DNA of 64,000 bases from Zhongshania antarctica (GTDB taxonomy: Bacteria > Pseudomonadota > Gammaproteobacteria > Pseudomonadales > Spongiibacteraceae): NCBI RefSeq assembly GCF_014202945.1, contig NZ_JACHHW010000005.1, positions 1 to 64,000 on the forward strand, written 5' to 3'. Position numbers and translations under genes: made by a program. Below the pieces are notes generated by a model. That model saw nothing but the letters and a program-made list of their open reading frames with translations. It was not told the DNA's origin and ran no database searches. Position 1 is the first letter of the stretch. The number at the start of each line of letters is the position of its first letter. Shown one piece after another: positions 15,984 to 22,339 of the stretch.

Positions 15984-16160
15984 ATGCAAATTCAGTCTCC
16001 CCTGCTTTTATTATCAATTTTTGCTTTTGTGTATGCCCCAACGATGGGCCGCTGGCTCTATGAGGGCAGCAATCTTTGGTATCGCCACCATTTAATCTGG
16101 CTATTTATTATTGGCTTTGTGTTTATCAGCCTCCGTCAGCGACGCCACAATGACCTTTAG
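15984..16160 (+). CDS. cbrX: small membrane protein upstream of cbrA (CbrX-like)
   Basis: A 58-residue ORF with two hydrophobic segments (about 6-18 and 37-50) and a basic C-terminus ending LRQRRHNDL. Its 3' end overlaps the cbrA start at 16150 by 11 bases in another frame. Pseudomonas carries a small ORF of this size and kind (cbrX, PA4724.1) at the same place, where it is reported to be translationally coupled to cbrA. I assign the name by position and type, not by clear sequence identity. No strong ribosome site precedes its ATG. Confidence 0.6.
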   Translation: MQIQSPLLLLSIFAFVYAPTMGRWLYEGSNLWYRHHLIWLFIIGFVFISLRQRRHNDL

Positions 16161-19035
16161 TATCAACACCCTATTTTTAATAGGGCTTAGCTATTTACTG
16201 CTACTTTTCGCCATCGCCTACGCTGCAGAACGTCATCTACTGCCGAGTAAAATCATCAACCATCCCGCCACCTATGTTCTGTCTCTGGGGATATACGCCA
16301 GTGGCTTTGCCATCTATGGCGCCGTGGGCTTTGCCAAGAATTACGGCTACAGCTTCCTGAATTATTATATCGGCCTGTCCGCGGCAATGATTTTATTGCC
16401 CATAATGCTTCTACCCATTCATCGCATATGCAAAAACTATCGACTGAACTCACTCGCCGACCTTCTTAGTTTTCGCTTCCGCAGTTCCTGGGTGGGCTCA
16501 CTGGTCACACTTTTTACCGCTATCGCTATCTGGCCACTGCTCGCCATTCAAATACAAACCGTTTCGGAATCGACCCTTATATTGAGTTTAGGCCACGCGC
16601 TGAGCCAGGAAGACGATGGCTACCGAAGGCTTACCGCTCTTGGTTTTTGCGTGATTATCACGGCATTTACCATTTTATTTGGCTCGCGCAATCTTACCTC
16701 CAAAGATAGCCACCGAGGCTTACTCACTGCACTGGCCTTTGAATCGCTCGTTAAAATGTTTGCCCTGCTGCTGGTGGGTATTATCAGCACCTATGCCGTA
16801 TTTGGCAGTTTTGGCGGTCTGCAAAGTTGGCTAGACAGTAGCCCCGATGTTTTGGCCTCGCTCAACAAGCCCCACGCCGCCGACAGCAATCGCTTGATGC
16901 TGATTATGTTTTTTGCCGCCGCCGTGTGCATGCCCCATATTTTTCATATGCTCTTTTCGGAAAATCCCAGCGCAAAAAATCTCGCCACCGCGAGCTGGGG
17001 CCTACCGCTATTCTTATTGATTATGAGCTTGCCAGTTTTACCCATCCTCTGGGCCGGAAGCGCTAGGGGCATTGCACTGCCAGCCGACTACTATGCGCTT
17101 GGCCTATCACTCGAAATCGGCAAGCCGTGGCTGTCGGTGCTGCTCTACTTAGGGGGCTTATCCGCCGCCAGTGGCGCCATCATTGTCACCACCTTGGCAC
17201 TGGCCTCAATGAGTCTCAACCATCTCGTATTGCCGGTATTGCGCCCCAAAAACTCAAAAGGCCGCGATATCGATATATACCGCTGGCTACTCACCACTCG
17301 TCAACTGCTGATTTGCGTCATCATTCTTATTGGCTTTGTATTTTATGAACTAATCGGTGCATCGCAAAGCCTCAGCCGCTTAGCCATGACCTCAGCCAGC
17401 GGCTGCGTCCAGTTTCTGCCCGGCGTATTGGCCGTGCTGTACTGGCCTAAAGCGAATCGCAACGGGTTTATCAGCGGCTTATGTGCAGGCTTTAGCCTCT
17501 GGATAATAGGCATCATTTTGCCCATGTTTAGCGGTGTTCATCCCAGCTTTTTAGAGCACCTTTATTTATACCCCATTGAGCGAGATCAGTTCTGGGTAGT
17601 CATCACTGGATTATCGCTAGCCCTGAACGGCATTGTTTTCATTATCGTGTCGTTACTGAGCGAAACCTCCGCCGAAGAGCGCCGCGCCGCCGAAGCCTGC
17701 ACTATCGGCGACCGCGCCGCCACGCAAGAATTCCAGCGCGCGCTCGACGAACTGCAAATGAATGAACAGGAAACCCGACCCTATGCTCTGCGCCGAATTA
17801 GAGACCGAATAGAAGTTAACCTATCCTCGCTAGTCGGCCCGTCCAGTGCTCGCCGGGTAATAGATCGCGCCCTGCCCTATACCGATAATGTCATGGGCGA
17901 CAGCGAAGACATTACCTATATTGAAAAGCGACTCGAGAACTACCAGACCCACCTCACCGGCCTCGCCGCCGATTTAGATAGCCTGCGCCGCTACCACCGG
18001 CAAACCCTAGAAGACTTACCCATCGGCGTGTGCGCTCTTGGCCGCGACCAGGAAATACTGCTGTGGAATATGTCCATGGCCGACATTACTCACATCAACG
18101 CCAATACTGTCACTGGCTCCCGCTTAGCCGGGCTACCAGAACCTTGGTCAACGTGCCTGCAAGACTTTTTAGCCAGCAGCGATCTACACCGCAGCAAGTT
18201 CAGTGTCGAAACCGACGGTGGCCTGCGCTGGTTGAATTTACACCGCACCGAATCGCAGATGCTTGGCCGTGACGAATTAATTGTCGTCGTTGAAGACATC
18301 ACCGACACCCAGTTACTGGAGCATGAGCTCACGCATCAAGAGCGCCTAGCCTCAATTGGCCGACTGGCCGCCGGAGTCGCCCACGAGATCGGCAACCCGG
18401 TTACTGGGATCGCCTGCCTGGCTCAAAATTTACGTTACGAAAGTGACAACGCCGACACGTTGGAAGCCGCCTCGCAAATCGTTAAGCAAACCCAGCGTAT
18501 AAGTAGTATTGTGCATAGCTTGGTTAACTTCGCCCACACCGGACGCCAAGACCCGACCCAAGCTACTGAAGCGGTGTCTGTGCGCAACTGCGTCAGCGAA
18601 GCCGTGCAGCTGCTAAGTCTCGACCCCGAAGCCCGCCACATTCACTACAACAACAACTGCCCTGAGCATATTGTTGTGGCTGGCGACAATCAGCGCCTAA
18701 TGCAGGTGTTCATCAATTTACTCTCCAATGCCCGCGATGCCAGCCCCGAGGACGGCATGATCACCGTGGATGCTGAAGCTGAACAAGATAGTGCCCACAT
18801 TACAGTGACCGACCACGGCACCGGGATAGACGAGAAATTACAGAAGCAAATATTTGAACCATTCTTTACGACCAAAGAGCCAGGTAAAGGCACTGGCCTC
18901 GGCTTAGCGCTGGTGTATAACATTATCAGCGATCTTGGCGGCGATATTAGTATTGAAAGCCCGGTCACGGAATTTAGCCGATCCGGCACCCGATTTCACA
19001 TCCACCTCAGACTGAACCACCCTGAGGTACTCTAG
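16150..19035 (+). CDS. cbrA: sensor histidine kinase with SLC5-like transporter domain
   Basis: Membrane sensor of the CbrAB carbon/nitrogen-balance system. The 961 residues comprise a sodium/solute symporter-like domain with about 13 helices (about 1-500), a linker resembling the STAC region (about 520-600), a PAS domain (about 620-725), a HisKA domain with phospho-acceptor His 745 ([10 protein letters not shown]) and a HATPase domain with [17 protein letters not shown] and GKGTGLGL. The ATG at 16150 overlaps the cbrX-like ORF; the frame is open to 16111. Its partner cbrB lies 77 bases downstream, as in Pseudomonas. Confidence 0.92.
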
Positions 19036-19112: not shown

Positions 19113-20573
19113 ATGCCCAGAATCCTTTTAGTCGAAGACGAAGACGTTATCCGTCTAGCACTGCGTCGCCTACTAGAACGCAATGACTATCAGGTGGACG
19201 AAGCCGATTCAGTTTCAAAGGCACTGAGCACCTATAAAGTTGACGATTACGACTTAATTATCAGCGACTTACGCCTACCTGGTGCCCCGGGAACAGACCT
19301 TATCAGTAAAACCGACGCACCCGTGTTGATTATGACCAGCTACGCCAGCCTCAAATCTGCGGTCGACTCCATGAAAAAAGGCGCTATCGACTATATTGCC
19401 AAGCCCTTTGACCACGACGAAATGCTAGAAACCGTCGAGCGCATCATTCTCAGCACCGCAAAAGAGAGCACCCCGGGCGATAAGCCAGAGCCCAGCAGCA
19501 GCCAGCGCAAACAGATCGCCGACGCTAACGGCATGATTGGCAGCTGCAAAGCTATGCAGCAACTCTACGATCACATTCGCCGCGCCGCGCCCACTGACGC
19601 CACCATCCTGGTACACGGCGAAACCGGCACCGGTAAAGAACTCGTGGCCAGAGCGATACACAACCAGAGCACCAGAGCGACGAAAGCTATCATCTGCGTG
19701 AACTGCGCCGCAATTCCAGAAACACTGATTGAGTCGGAGCTATTCGGTTATGAAAAAGGCGCTTTTACTGGCGCCAACGCCAGCCGCATTGGCCTAATTG
19801 AGGCCGCCGACGGCGGCACTTTATTCCTGGACGAAATTGGCGAATTGCCCCTTGAGGCCCAAGCTCGGCTTCTGCGCTTTATCCAAGAAGATGAAATTCG
19901 TCGCATTGGTTCCGTGGAGTCCAGCAAGGTCAATGTTCGTCTTATTTGCGCCACTCACCGCGACCTCAAGGAAATGGCTCACGCTGGGCGCTTCCGAGAA
20001 GACCTTTACTACCGCATTAATGTCATGAAACTCGAGCTACCGCCCTTAAGAGAGCGCGGCAAAGACATTCTTGAACTTGCCGAAGCGTTGCTAAAACACC
20101 GCTGCGAAAAAATGAAAAAGCCCCTAATGCACTTTAGCCCCAAGGCCATTCAAGCAATCACCACCTATATCTGGCCCGGCAATATCCGCGAACTGGAAAA
20201 TGCCATCGAGCGCGCCGTAATCCTGTGCGATCGCAAAGAAATAGATAACGAATTACTCGATATCGACCTCGAACTTGTCGACATTGGCCAAATTAGAGGC
20301 CGCAGCAACGAATTTAACAATCGCCCCGGCAGTGTTAACAACAATGGCGCAATTGAGCGTAAAGATAACCGCAGCAAACCAAGCCGCGCCAATGACCCCA
20401 GCGAAGACTTATCCCTCGAGGACTACTTCCAGCGCTTTGTCCTCGAGCATCAAGACTCCATGAGCGAAACGGAGCTAGCCCAAAAGCTCGGTGTTAGCCG
20501 TAAATGCCTATGGGAGCGCCGCCAGCGATTGGGTATTCCGCGCAAAAAAGTGGCCGCCAGAAGCAACGCCTAA
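19113..20573 (+). CDS. cbrB: sigma-54-dependent response regulator
   Basis: NtrC-type activator, partner of CbrA. The 486 residues include a receiver domain with phospho-acceptor Asp52 (ISDLRLPGAPG), an AAA+ domain with GETGTGKE (Walker A), GAFTGA at about 216-221 (the sigma-54 contact loop) and GGTLFLDEIGE (Walker B), and a Fis-type helix-turn-helix (SETELAQKLGVSRKCLWERRQRLG). The receiver is very like Pseudomonas CbrB. Immediately after its stop are repeated GTTAC/GTAAC sites and a sigma-54 promoter, the expected target. Confidence 0.93.
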   Translation: MPRILLVEDEDVIRLALRRLLERNDYQVDEADSVSKALSTYKVDDYDLIISDLRLPGAPGTDLISKTDAPVLIMTSYASLKSAVDSMKKGAIDYIAKPFDHDEMLETVERIILSTAKESTPGDKPEPSSSQRKQIADANGMIGSCKAMQQLYDHIRRAAPTDATILVHGETGTGKELVARAIHNQSTRATKAIICVNCAAIPETLIESELFGYEKGAFTGANASRIGLIEAADGGTLFLDEIGELPLEAQARLLRFIQEDEIRRIGSVESSKVNVRLICATHRDLKEMAHAGRFREDLYYRINVMKLELPPLRERGKDILELAEALLKHRCEKMKKPLMHFSPKAIQAITTYIWPGNIRELENAIERAVILCDRKEIDNELLDIDLELVDIGQIRGRSNEFNNRPGSVNNNGAIERKDNRSKPSRANDPSEDLSLEDYFQRFVLEHQDSMSETELAQKLGVSRKCLWERRQRLGIPRKKVAARSNA

Positions 20574-20588
20574 AAAGACATGGGCACC

Positions 20589-20636
20589 GTTACCCAATCC
20601 AACGGAATGTAACAAAGGGCGTTTACTAGGGTAACA
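20589..20636 (+). promoter_or_regulatory. candidate CbrB binding sites upstream of the CrcZ-like RNA
   Basis: Four half-sites in alternating orientation: GTTACC at 20589-20594, TGTAACA at 20608-20614, GTTTAC at 20621-20626 and GGTAACA at 20630-20636. They lie 100-150 bases before the predicted start of the RNA, a normal enhancer distance for a sigma-54 activator. GTTAC/GTAAC palindromes are what I remember of Pseudomonas CbrB sites. Confidence 0.6.
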
Positions 20637-20710
20637 AGTCGCAAATGTGTAAGGGGTTTCCACGACGAGGAAAATACCTAAGTGATTGAAATTAAAGGAT
20701 TTTTAAAACA

Positions 20711-20726
20711 TGGCACGGCATATGCT
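20711..20726 (+). promoter_or_regulatory. sigma-54 promoter of the CrcZ-like RNA
   Basis: TGGCAC, five bases, then ATGCT. The GG (20712-20713) and GC (20724-20725) doublets are ten bases apart, as the -24/-12 consensus requires; one base differs from TTGCW. The predicted start of transcription is about 20737. The gene just upstream encodes a GAFTGA-bearing activator. Confidence 0.8.
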
Positions 20727-20736
20727 CTCTCTACGT

Positions 20737-20847
20737 ACAAACAACAATAAGAAAACAAAATAATAATAAGAAAAGATAAACAATAATAATAATACAACAG
20801 CAAAGAGACCTGGGTGGGGAAGACAATGTTTTCCCCTTCTTCATTTT
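20737..20847 (+). ncRNA. crcZ: CrcZ-like Hfq/Crc-titrating small RNA
   Basis: A roughly 110-base A-rich transcript predicted from a sigma-54 promoter and a terminator, in the cbrB-pcnB gap where Pseudomonas carries crcZ. It holds seven overlapping exact matches to the catabolite-activity motif AANAAYAA in three clusters (20740-20750, 20759-20769, 20779-20792). No reading frame with a ribosome site is present. It is much shorter than the roughly 400-base Pseudomonas CrcZ but denser in motifs. Function (sequestering Hfq/Crc when CbrAB is active) is inferred from family knowledge. The ends are predicted. Confidence 0.75.
20816..20847 (+). terminator. terminator of the CrcZ-like RNA
   Basis: GGGGAAGAC (20816-20824) pairs with GTTTTCCCC (20828-20836) with one G-T wobble around a three-base loop. 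A T-rich but interrupted tail follows (20837-20847). Confidence 0.65.
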
Positions 20848-20962
20848 AAAAACCCCTAAATTACGAAAACCACCAAAAAATTCCTCCTCCGCATTTCCCG
20901 CACACACCAAAGCCCTGTGCTAGAATGCTGCCTTTATCATTAACGGCCGACCCTAAAACGCA

Positions 20963-22339
20963 ATGACATCAAGCTCTGTTACCGGTCTGTGGAAAAAGCT
21001 AACCGGCAAATTCTCCAAATCCAGCCAAGGCGCCGCGCACCACGTGGCCATTATTCCTAGGGATCAACACACGGTATCGCGCAGACACATTAGCGAAGCT
21101 GCGCTAAAAGTCATCCGCAAACTAAACGACGAAGGTTTCGAGGCGTTTCTAGTCGGCGGCGGCGTCCGCGACCTGTTGCTCGGCGGCCAACCCAAAGATT
21201 TCGACATCGCCACCGATGCAACCCCCGAGCAGGTTCGCAATGCCTTTCGCAATAGCCGCATTATTGGTCGGCGTTTTCGTATCGTGCACGTCCGTTTTGG
21301 CAGGGAAATCATCGAGGTCACCACTTTCCGTGGCAACCACAGCGCCCCGGCTAGCAACCCGCAGCGCAACAAACATTCTGCGCAAACTGAATCGGGCATG
21401 CTCACCAGAGACAATGTTTACGGCTCAATCGACGACGATGCCGCGCGTCGCGACCTCACCATAAACGCCCTGTATTACTCCAGCCGCGACTTCTGCGTTT
21501 ACGACTTTGTTGGCGGCCTAGACGACCTCAATAACAAACTCATTCGCATCATCGGCGACCCTGAAACTCGCTACCGCGAAGACCCGGTGCGGATGCTGCG
21601 CGTAGTGCGCTTTGCCGCCAAACTCGACTTTGATATTGAAAAGCACAGCGAAGCGCCCATCAAACGCCTTGCCCCACTGCTGAACGATATTGCCGCCGCC
21701 CGCATGTTTGACGAAGTCATCAAGCTTTTCATGTCCGGCCAGGGTCTGCACACTTACGCACTCATGCAGCGCTACGAGTTATTCGCCCCGCTTTTCCCCG
21801 CCACTCAAAAAATGCTTAGCCAACGCGAGCCAGCCGCCGAAGAAATTATCAAACAAGGCTTGATAAACACCGATGCTCGCATCGCTGACGGCAAGCCCGT
21901 CACCCCTGCGTTTATCTATGCGGTTATTTTGTGGCCGATGGTCAAACACCTGCACAAAGAAATCATGGATGCCGGCACACCGGAAATTGCCGCCCTACAT
22001 CAGGCCGCGGAGCGGGTTCTTCACAAGCAACAACAGACCGTCGCCATTCCCAAACGTTTCTCGCTACCCATGCGCGACATCTGGGAACTTCAATGCCGCT
22101 TAACGCGGCGCTCCGGCAAGCGTCCCGAGCAACTCTTAGAACACCGCTATTTCCGAGCGGGCTTTGACTTCTTATTATTACGCGAGCAAGCGGGCGAAAT
22201 TGAACCCGGACTCGGACAGTGGTGGCTGGCGTTCCAAGAGGCCCACGTCGATACCCGTGGCGCCATGCTTAGCCAGGTTCCGACCGGCGACAAACCACGA
22301 GCACCGCGGCGGCGACGCGGCCCTCGCAAACCAAGATGA
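20963..22339 (+). CDS. pcnB: poly(A) polymerase I
   Basis: Adds 3' poly(A) tails to RNA, promoting its decay. The 458 residues contain the nucleotidyltransferase signature LVGGGVRDLLLG, the catalytic KDFDIAT pair of aspartates near 80, the RRDLTINALYY segment and the RFAAKL RNA-binding region. The lysine/arginine-rich C-terminal tail is typical of PcnB rather than of CCA-adding enzymes. Its TGA overlaps the folK ATG by four bases. Confidence 0.95.
   Translation: MTSSSVTGLWKKLTGKFSKSSQGAAHHVAIIPRDQHTVSRRHISEAALKVIRKLNDEGFEAFLVGGGVRDLLLGGQPKDFDIATDATPEQVRNAFRNSRIIGRRFRIVHVRFGREIIEVTTFRGNHSAPASNPQRNKHSAQTESGMLTRDNVYGSIDDDAARRDLTINALYYSSRDFCVYDFVGGLDDLNNKLIRIIGDPETRYREDPVRMLRVVRFAAKLDFDIEKHSEAPIKRLAPLLNDIAAARMFDEVIKLFMSGQGLHTYALMQRYELFAPLFPATQKMLSQREPAAEEIIKQGLINTDARIADGKPVTPAFIYAVILWPMVKHLHKEIMDAGTPEIAALHQAAERVLHKQQQTVAIPKRFSLPMRDIWELQCRLTRRSGKRPEQLLEHRYFRAGFDFLLLREQAGEIEPGLGQWWLAFQEAHVDTRGAMLSQVPTGDKPRAPRRRRGPRKPR

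Follow-up and report, generated by a model that had tools for sequence, protein, structure and literature searches.

A probable compact CrcZ-type decoy RNA gene between cbrB and pcnB outside Pseudomonadaceae

The gap between the cbrB and pcnB genes of the window (the whole 64-kb stretch of DNA analyzed here) probably encodes a compact CrcZ-type decoy RNA gene, a reading to which we assign a probability of about 0.82. The gap carries a sigma-54 promoter preceded by CbrB half-sites, an A-rich arm and an intrinsic terminator (Table 1), and the RNA predicted from these elements would be about 110 nt long.

Table 1. Features of the cbrA-pcnB region (positions in the window)
Feature	Position	Strand	Remarks
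cbrA, sensor kinase	16111..19035	+	HisKA, HATPase_c, PAS; multi-TM N-terminus by eye
cbrB, sigma-54-activating response regulator	19113..20573	+	
CbrB half-site F1 (GTTAC)	20589..20593	+	-122 from sigma-54 site
CbrB half-site R1 (GTAAC)	20609..20613	+	-102 from sigma-54 site
CbrB half-site R2 (GTAAC)	20631..20635	+	-80 from sigma-54 site
Sigma-54 (-24/-12) promoter TGGCACGGCATATGCT	20711..20726	+	GG-N10-GC spacing
Predicted CrcZ-like RNA, ~110 nt	20737..20846	+	start inferred from promoter, end from terminator
A-R-N block 1	20740..20754	+	5 triplets
A-R-N block 2	20759..20776	+	6 triplets
A-R-N block 3	20779..20793	+	5 triplets
Conserved block AGACCTGGGTGGGG	20806..20819	+	AGACCTG part outside hairpin in centroid fold
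Intrinsic terminator	20816..20846	+	hairpin 20816-20836 + T-rich tail
TGTGCTAGAAT, extended -10-like element	20916..20926	+	exact in 16/18 genus gaps
pcnB, poly(A) polymerase	20963..22339	+	

Promoter and anatomy of the predicted RNA

The gene order cbrA-cbrB-gap-pcnB, as claimed by an earlier reading made from the sequence alone, was borne out by the annotation of the window genes, and direct reading from the cbrB stop at 20573 to the pcnB ATG at 20963 gives a gap of 389 bp (20574-20962). In the cbrA product, no match to the SLC5/SSF domain known from Pseudomonas CbrA attained the Pfam threshold (E 0.001). The -24/-12 sigma-54 promoter proposed in that reading was also found, with a score of 11 of 12; it is the sole site scoring at least 11 of 12 on either strand of the window, and a site of this quality arises in 14 of 20,000 shuffles of the cbrB-pcnB gap. 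Upstream of this promoter lie three CbrB half-sites that the sequence-only reading had missed, and which match the F1, R1 and R2 subsites of the P. putida crcZ gene, where CbrB acts through the non-palindromic subsites TGTTAC (F) and GTAACA (R) located 12-16 nt apart (excerpts of PMC6296734). The half-sites are kept at -122, -102 and -80, within one base, in the 18 loci of the genus, and they stand at -123, -103 and -80 relative to the sigma-54 site in locus L030 of genome G040; the family of this genome (f21), where the Rfam CrcZ cut-off is exceeded by a wide margin, we take to be Pseudomonadaceae. The trio appeared in none of 20,000 shuffles of the stretch upstream of the sigma-54 site. Over whole genomes the trio lacks specificity: it matched 49 times across 30 of 57 genomes versus 25 for a reversed-pattern control, and the genome under study contains two of these matches and one of the control. 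The evidence provided by the trio rests on its position.

A second GTTAC-GTAAC-GTAAC trio was observed in the same genome (L223:1501-1547, i.e. G000:C2:137342-137388), and a second match is present in 16 of the 18 genus genomes, the reversed control being also frequent. In the four genomes examined it precedes the start of one and the same gene by about 190 nt; in the genome under study this is a divergent DUF3450 gene. No good sigma-54 site was found in these four genomes between the trio and that gene.

Seven AANAAYAA motifs start at positions 20740, 20743, 20759, 20762, 20779, 20782 and 20785, which agrees base for base with the seven that had been placed at 20740-20792, and this cluster is the densest in the window. 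By chance the 110-nt RNA would be expected to contain 0.60 such motifs and the gap 0.90, and none of 2000 shuffles reached seven in either case. Read as A-R-N triplets, the A-rich arm consists of three runs that begin about 20 nt apart; three runs are present in 19 of the 21 family loci, and two runs, one of them long or overlapping, in the other two (L003 and L011).

The terminator-like hairpin claimed at 20816-20836 contains nine pairs followed by TTCTTCATTT, and a terminator scan recovered it as GGGGAAGACAATGTTTTCCCC with TTCTTCATTT. Four terminator-like sites were detected between 20540 and 21000, two of them versions of this hairpin and two on the opposite strand, versus 0.8 expected. The predicted RNA delimited in this way has the same length, about 110 nt, as that put forward previously. 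When the RNA was folded alone, pairing was confined to the 3' end, where the minimum-energy form has three further pairs flanking the hairpin. This fold was only mildly better than those of shuffled sequences (z -1.86; 8 of 200 as good). The hairpin is preceded by a conserved block, AGACCUGGGUGGGG, that the earlier reading did not contain, and the GGGG of this 3' block forms part of the terminator stem.

Occurrence in other genomes

A CbrB search matched all 57 genomes analyzed, including the one under study; G038, G043 and G055 yielded distant relatives only, and the best CbrB locus of each of the remaining 54 genomes was examined. A sigma-54 site scoring at least 9 follows cbrB in 46 of these 54 loci, those without it being L028 (score 8), L032 and L033 (contig ends), L038, L039, L040, L049 and L050. 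Within the 120 nt after the start, the 46 loci contain 269 AANAAYAA motifs versus 24 expected, L044 being the single locus with none, and the first motif is located 11-18 nt past the sigma-54 site in 37 of them. These values, together with the retention of the half-sites in the genus, gave a positive answer to the conservation check in relatives that the sequence-only reading had suggested.

The length of the predicted RNA, as estimated by a crude terminator scan, is 105-113 nt in all 21 family loci. In six loci outside the family that carry the 3' block a terminator was called in two only (100 and 144 nt), and most loci lacking the block gave 161-470 nt, L026 (80 nt) being among the exceptions. 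The block AGACCTGGGTGGGG is identical, or shows one G-to-A change, in the 21 family loci, and a 3' block is present in 27 of the 54 loci chosen by CbrB, which with the family value constitutes the fair count of its conservation. The stem was scored one by one in 90 distinct 3' ends, two chance rows having been dropped, and at least 6 bp are formed in all 90, with several compensating stem sequences; the T-rich tails are weak, since in 23 of the 90 the six bases that follow the stem include at most two T. An alignment of 20 of 28 block-carrying RNAs indicated that the 3' block is more constant than the A-rich arm within the family, and since the rows of this alignment and of the 3'-end set were selected for CCTGG[AG]TGGGG, the invariance of the block in those rows is by construction. 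RNAalifold run on the 3' ends returned a consensus of four pairs only, in our opinion because loops of unequal length were misaligned.

The pattern RCCTGGRTGGGGN{3,16}TCCCC was detected at 61 places in 51 of 390 genomes of the order and its reversed control at none; two of the places (G065 and G248) look like chance, and G030, a known carrier of the block, was missed because its stem differs. Rfam CrcZ reached E 0.001 in 59 of 293 genomes of the order and the cut-off in 14, and under the filters of this search no CrcZ match was obtained in the genome under study. A protein-blind scan for a sigma-54 site followed, after 60-90 nt, by RCCTGGRTGGGG was run on one genome per species of 84,980 species and returned 90 stretches. 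Eighty of these were listed and read: 70 have cbrB upstream and pcnB downstream and eight have one of the two genes with the RNA near a locus end, which makes 78 with cbrB and/or pcnB as a neighbor. The motif search of other genomes that had been advised also came out in favor of the locus. The remaining two, L132 and L179, show neither cbrB nor pcnB nor an A-rich arm. A loosened half-site trio is found at most 160 nt upstream in only 33 of the 80 listed loci. By their titles, most of the listed matches come from Zhongshania, Spongiibacter, Haliea, Halioglobus, Luminiphilus and similar genera of the families Spongiibacteraceae and Halieaceae, or from unclassified Gammaproteobacteria. L179, titled Acidocella, is a chance match to the pattern, and the title of L136 (Verrucomicrobiaceae) is probably a wrong bin name.

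Pairs of compact RNAs were observed within one cbrB-pcnB gap in L109, L134, L136, L144, L169 and L174, and paired blocks separated by about 190-260 nt in G123, G150, G173, G194, G271, G307 and G387, the latter recognized by the block pattern alone. On a CbrB tree, in which L028, itself a short form, bears the label 'long or unseen' and L032 and L033 run into contig edges, the compact form is clustered, requiring four changes, and none of 500 shuffles was as low; a single origin of the compact form was not shown by this tree, whose bootstrap had not settled.

Proposed function and alternative readings

In P. aeruginosa, Hfq acts on A-rich sites to repress catabolic mRNAs and is sequestered by CrcZ, a 407-nt RNA with six A-rich stretches whose first 151 nt, containing three of them, give three shifted bands (excerpts of PMC4063720). 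According to the mechanism that we propose for the gap studied here, CbrA/CbrB would become active under poor carbon supply, and CbrB bound to its three half-sites would drive the sigma-54 RNA polymerase to synthesize an RNA of about 110 nt ending at its own terminator. The unstructured 5' part of this RNA would offer 5, 6 and 5 A-R-N triplets, about one block per distal face of Hfq, the face that takes A-R-N triplets (excerpts of PMC9890229), and the hairpin with its T-rich tail may use the proximal face. The RNA would in this way remove Hfq/Crc from the A-rich ribosome-binding sites of catabolic mRNAs and lift catabolite repression. Three A-R-N blocks, at about one per Hfq hexamer, could allow a single RNA to hold about three hexamers with Crc, and we infer that it captures that number.

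The proteins that such a mechanism would employ are encoded in the genome. RpoN is present, and Hfq (L259:161-418), which was found in 54 of the 57 genomes, differs from P. aeruginosa Hfq at 5 of the first 71 residues and at 11 of 78. Two close Crc-like proteins, L056 and L058, were identified. The first candidate, L056, was rejected, its best PDB match being 2jc5, an exodeoxyribonuclease of Neisseria type, and its catalytic E, D, N, D and H being intact; it is an AP endonuclease. L058:1459-2241 (260 aa) has P. aeruginosa Crc as its best PDB match, shows N, N, N, K and H in the catalytic columns against E, D, N, D and H in L056, and is encoded between pyrE and rph (both named by eye). On these marks L058 is assigned as the Crc of this genome, and the search for a Crc homologue raised by the sequence-only reading was thus successful.

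Of 19 further genomes of our own selection, 18 have a gene in which the first two catalytic residues are altered; it neighbors pyrE in all 18 and rph in 13. Among these 18, L270 is nearer to AP endonuclease by BLAST, yet it is degenerate and in place. The homologue of the nineteenth genome, G037, is catalytically intact, and its cbrB-pcnB gap (L049) is a 180-bp sequence with neither promoter nor motifs. In G037 (L049/L278), which has cbrB, no CrcZ-like RNA in the gap and no degenerate Crc were found, and a joint loss of the two is possible. Only a catalytically intact AP endonuclease was found in G041, G044, G047 and G051, all of which have the CrcZ-like RNA; in the first three (L095, L096 and L097, respectively) the intact gene lies near pyrE and rph and a degenerate Crc was not detected, and the CrcZ-like RNA may predate, or outlive, Crc. 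These three genomes would fit a decoy for Hfq alone, to which Crc is irrelevant, a reading that the degenerate Crc beside pyrE in the genome under study and in 18 of the 19 selected genomes makes unlikely.

The decoy model leaves the 3' block unaccounted for, and a pure decoy has no need of it; mRNA pairing, binding of a second protein and stability of the 3' end are its candidate roles. The conservation of the block within and beyond the family, and the position of AGACCUG outside the hairpin, would suit an RNA acting mainly by base pairing, in which the A-R-N arm would do no more than load the RNA onto Hfq, with AGACCUGGRUGGGG as the mRNA-pairing seed. When CAYCCAGGT was searched at most 30 nt before ATG in G000, G011, G009 and G018, 9, 14, 8 and 22 places were found, respectively, versus 2, 9, 6 and 1 in the reversed control (53 versus 18 in total). 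The 30 of the 53 places that were read, some of them for two ATGs, gave three ORFs of at least 60 aa beginning at such an ATG (L249, L253 and L258), all of them inside longer open frames. As evidence against pairing this is weak, the forward count exceeding that of the control; one match (G018:C1:916260) falls on the RNA's own antisense strand. Within the window, AYCCAGGTC with one mismatch occurs 19 times versus 15.3 expected. Moreover, three A-R-N blocks seem to go beyond the needs of Hfq loading, and we consider a mainly base-pairing sRNA improbable. We hold, tentatively, that a two-headed RNA is possible, whose A-R-N arm would be an Hfq/Crc decoy and whose AGACCUGGRUGGGG would act in trans through mRNA pairing or a second protein; if so, one CbrB-controlled RNA would both lift catabolite repression and regulate chosen targets in this marine group.

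That the gap might produce a sigma-54-driven leader or attenuator of pcnB rather than a free RNA would accord with their common strand and with the predicted RNA end 117 nt before the pcnB ATG, and it is very unlikely in view of the terminator hairpin before pcnB kept in the 90 distinct 3' ends, the tandem RNA copies of some genomes and the conserved -10-like element nearer to pcnB. This element, TGTGCTAGAAT, absent from the earlier reading, begins 47 nt upstream of pcnB and is perhaps the promoter of pcnB itself; a sigma-70 scan reported no promoter. A chance A-rich intergenic sequence, as the A+T richness of the gap might suggest, is scarcely credible, since the conservation argues decisively against it, and the statistics given above are also against it.

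Relation to CrcZ and biological meaning

The proposed compact decoy RNA gives an Rfam CrcZ match at 20755-20842 of 19.6 bits (E 0.0043) versus a gathering score of 95 bits, and no Rfam match at gathering score was obtained anywhere in the window. Because it falls short of CrcZ (RF01675) in this score and in length (about 110 nt predicted, against about 400 nt), the RNA is not filed as a member of that family. It agrees with CrcZ in being located between cbrB and pcnB, in its sigma-54 promoter with subsites F1, R1 and R2 and its several A-rich/CA motifs for the Hfq distal face, both recognized by sequence only, and in the presence of Hfq and Crc in the genome. With CrcZ, CrcY and CrcX of Pseudomonas and Azotobacter it has in common the cbrB-pcnB place, the geometry of the CbrB half-sites, the sigma-54 promoter and an A-rich block at the 5' end with several Hfq distal-face motifs. 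Unlike CrcZ, it has a conserved 3' block of its own and a host outside Pseudomonadaceae. Judged by place, promoter and 5' end, the RNA is probably an orthologue of CrcZ that has been shortened and remodelled. The expectation of the sequence-only reading that a compact form would reveal the essential parts of CrcZ holds insofar as the CbrB sites, the sigma-54 site and the 5' A-rich block recur in long and short forms; it does not hold as a description of the compact form itself, which, with a conserved 3' block of its own, is more than a trimmed CrcZ.

Class II Hfq sRNAs, such as ChiX and MgrR, carry A-R-N motifs for the distal face followed by a 3' terminator. The predicted RNA shares the A-R-N motifs and the intrinsic terminator with them and differs in having three A-R-N blocks and in the lack of a pairing target among the places read in the narrow CAYCCAGGT search. 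In size it would be about a quarter of the 407-nt CrcZ of strain PAO1, and it comes close to the Hfq/Crc assemblies on the 5' ends of the amiE, estA and rbsB mRNAs, in which fragments of 105-118 nt with A-R-N blocks and hairpins bind three Hfq hexamers, together with four Crc in the case of amiE105 and estA118, rbsB110 being the third fragment (excerpts of PMC9890229). Those are mRNA targets, whereas the RNA described here is predicted to be free and terminated.

Passages of a 2022 review and of a 2018 paper describe CbrAB as confined to Pseudomonadaceae and found in Pseudomonas and Azotobacter (PMC8871633, PMC6296734), and excerpts of a marine metatranscriptome paper report cbrAB transcripts for which they name no host (PMC5073097). 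Among the titles and abstract openings of the open PMC literature, subscription papers being outside this scope, no paper on a CrcZ-like RNA outside Pseudomonadaceae was recognized. The chain of CbrAB, sigma-54, CrcZ-like RNA, Hfq and Crc is seen by sequence well outside Pseudomonadaceae, marine Spongiibacteraceae and Halieaceae being two of the groups that show it. The predicted form of about 110 nt would be a natural minimal decoy, approximately the size of one three-Hfq assembly and handy for structural work, and it opens the questions of how the capacity of a decoy depends on its length and for what reason the 3' block has been kept.
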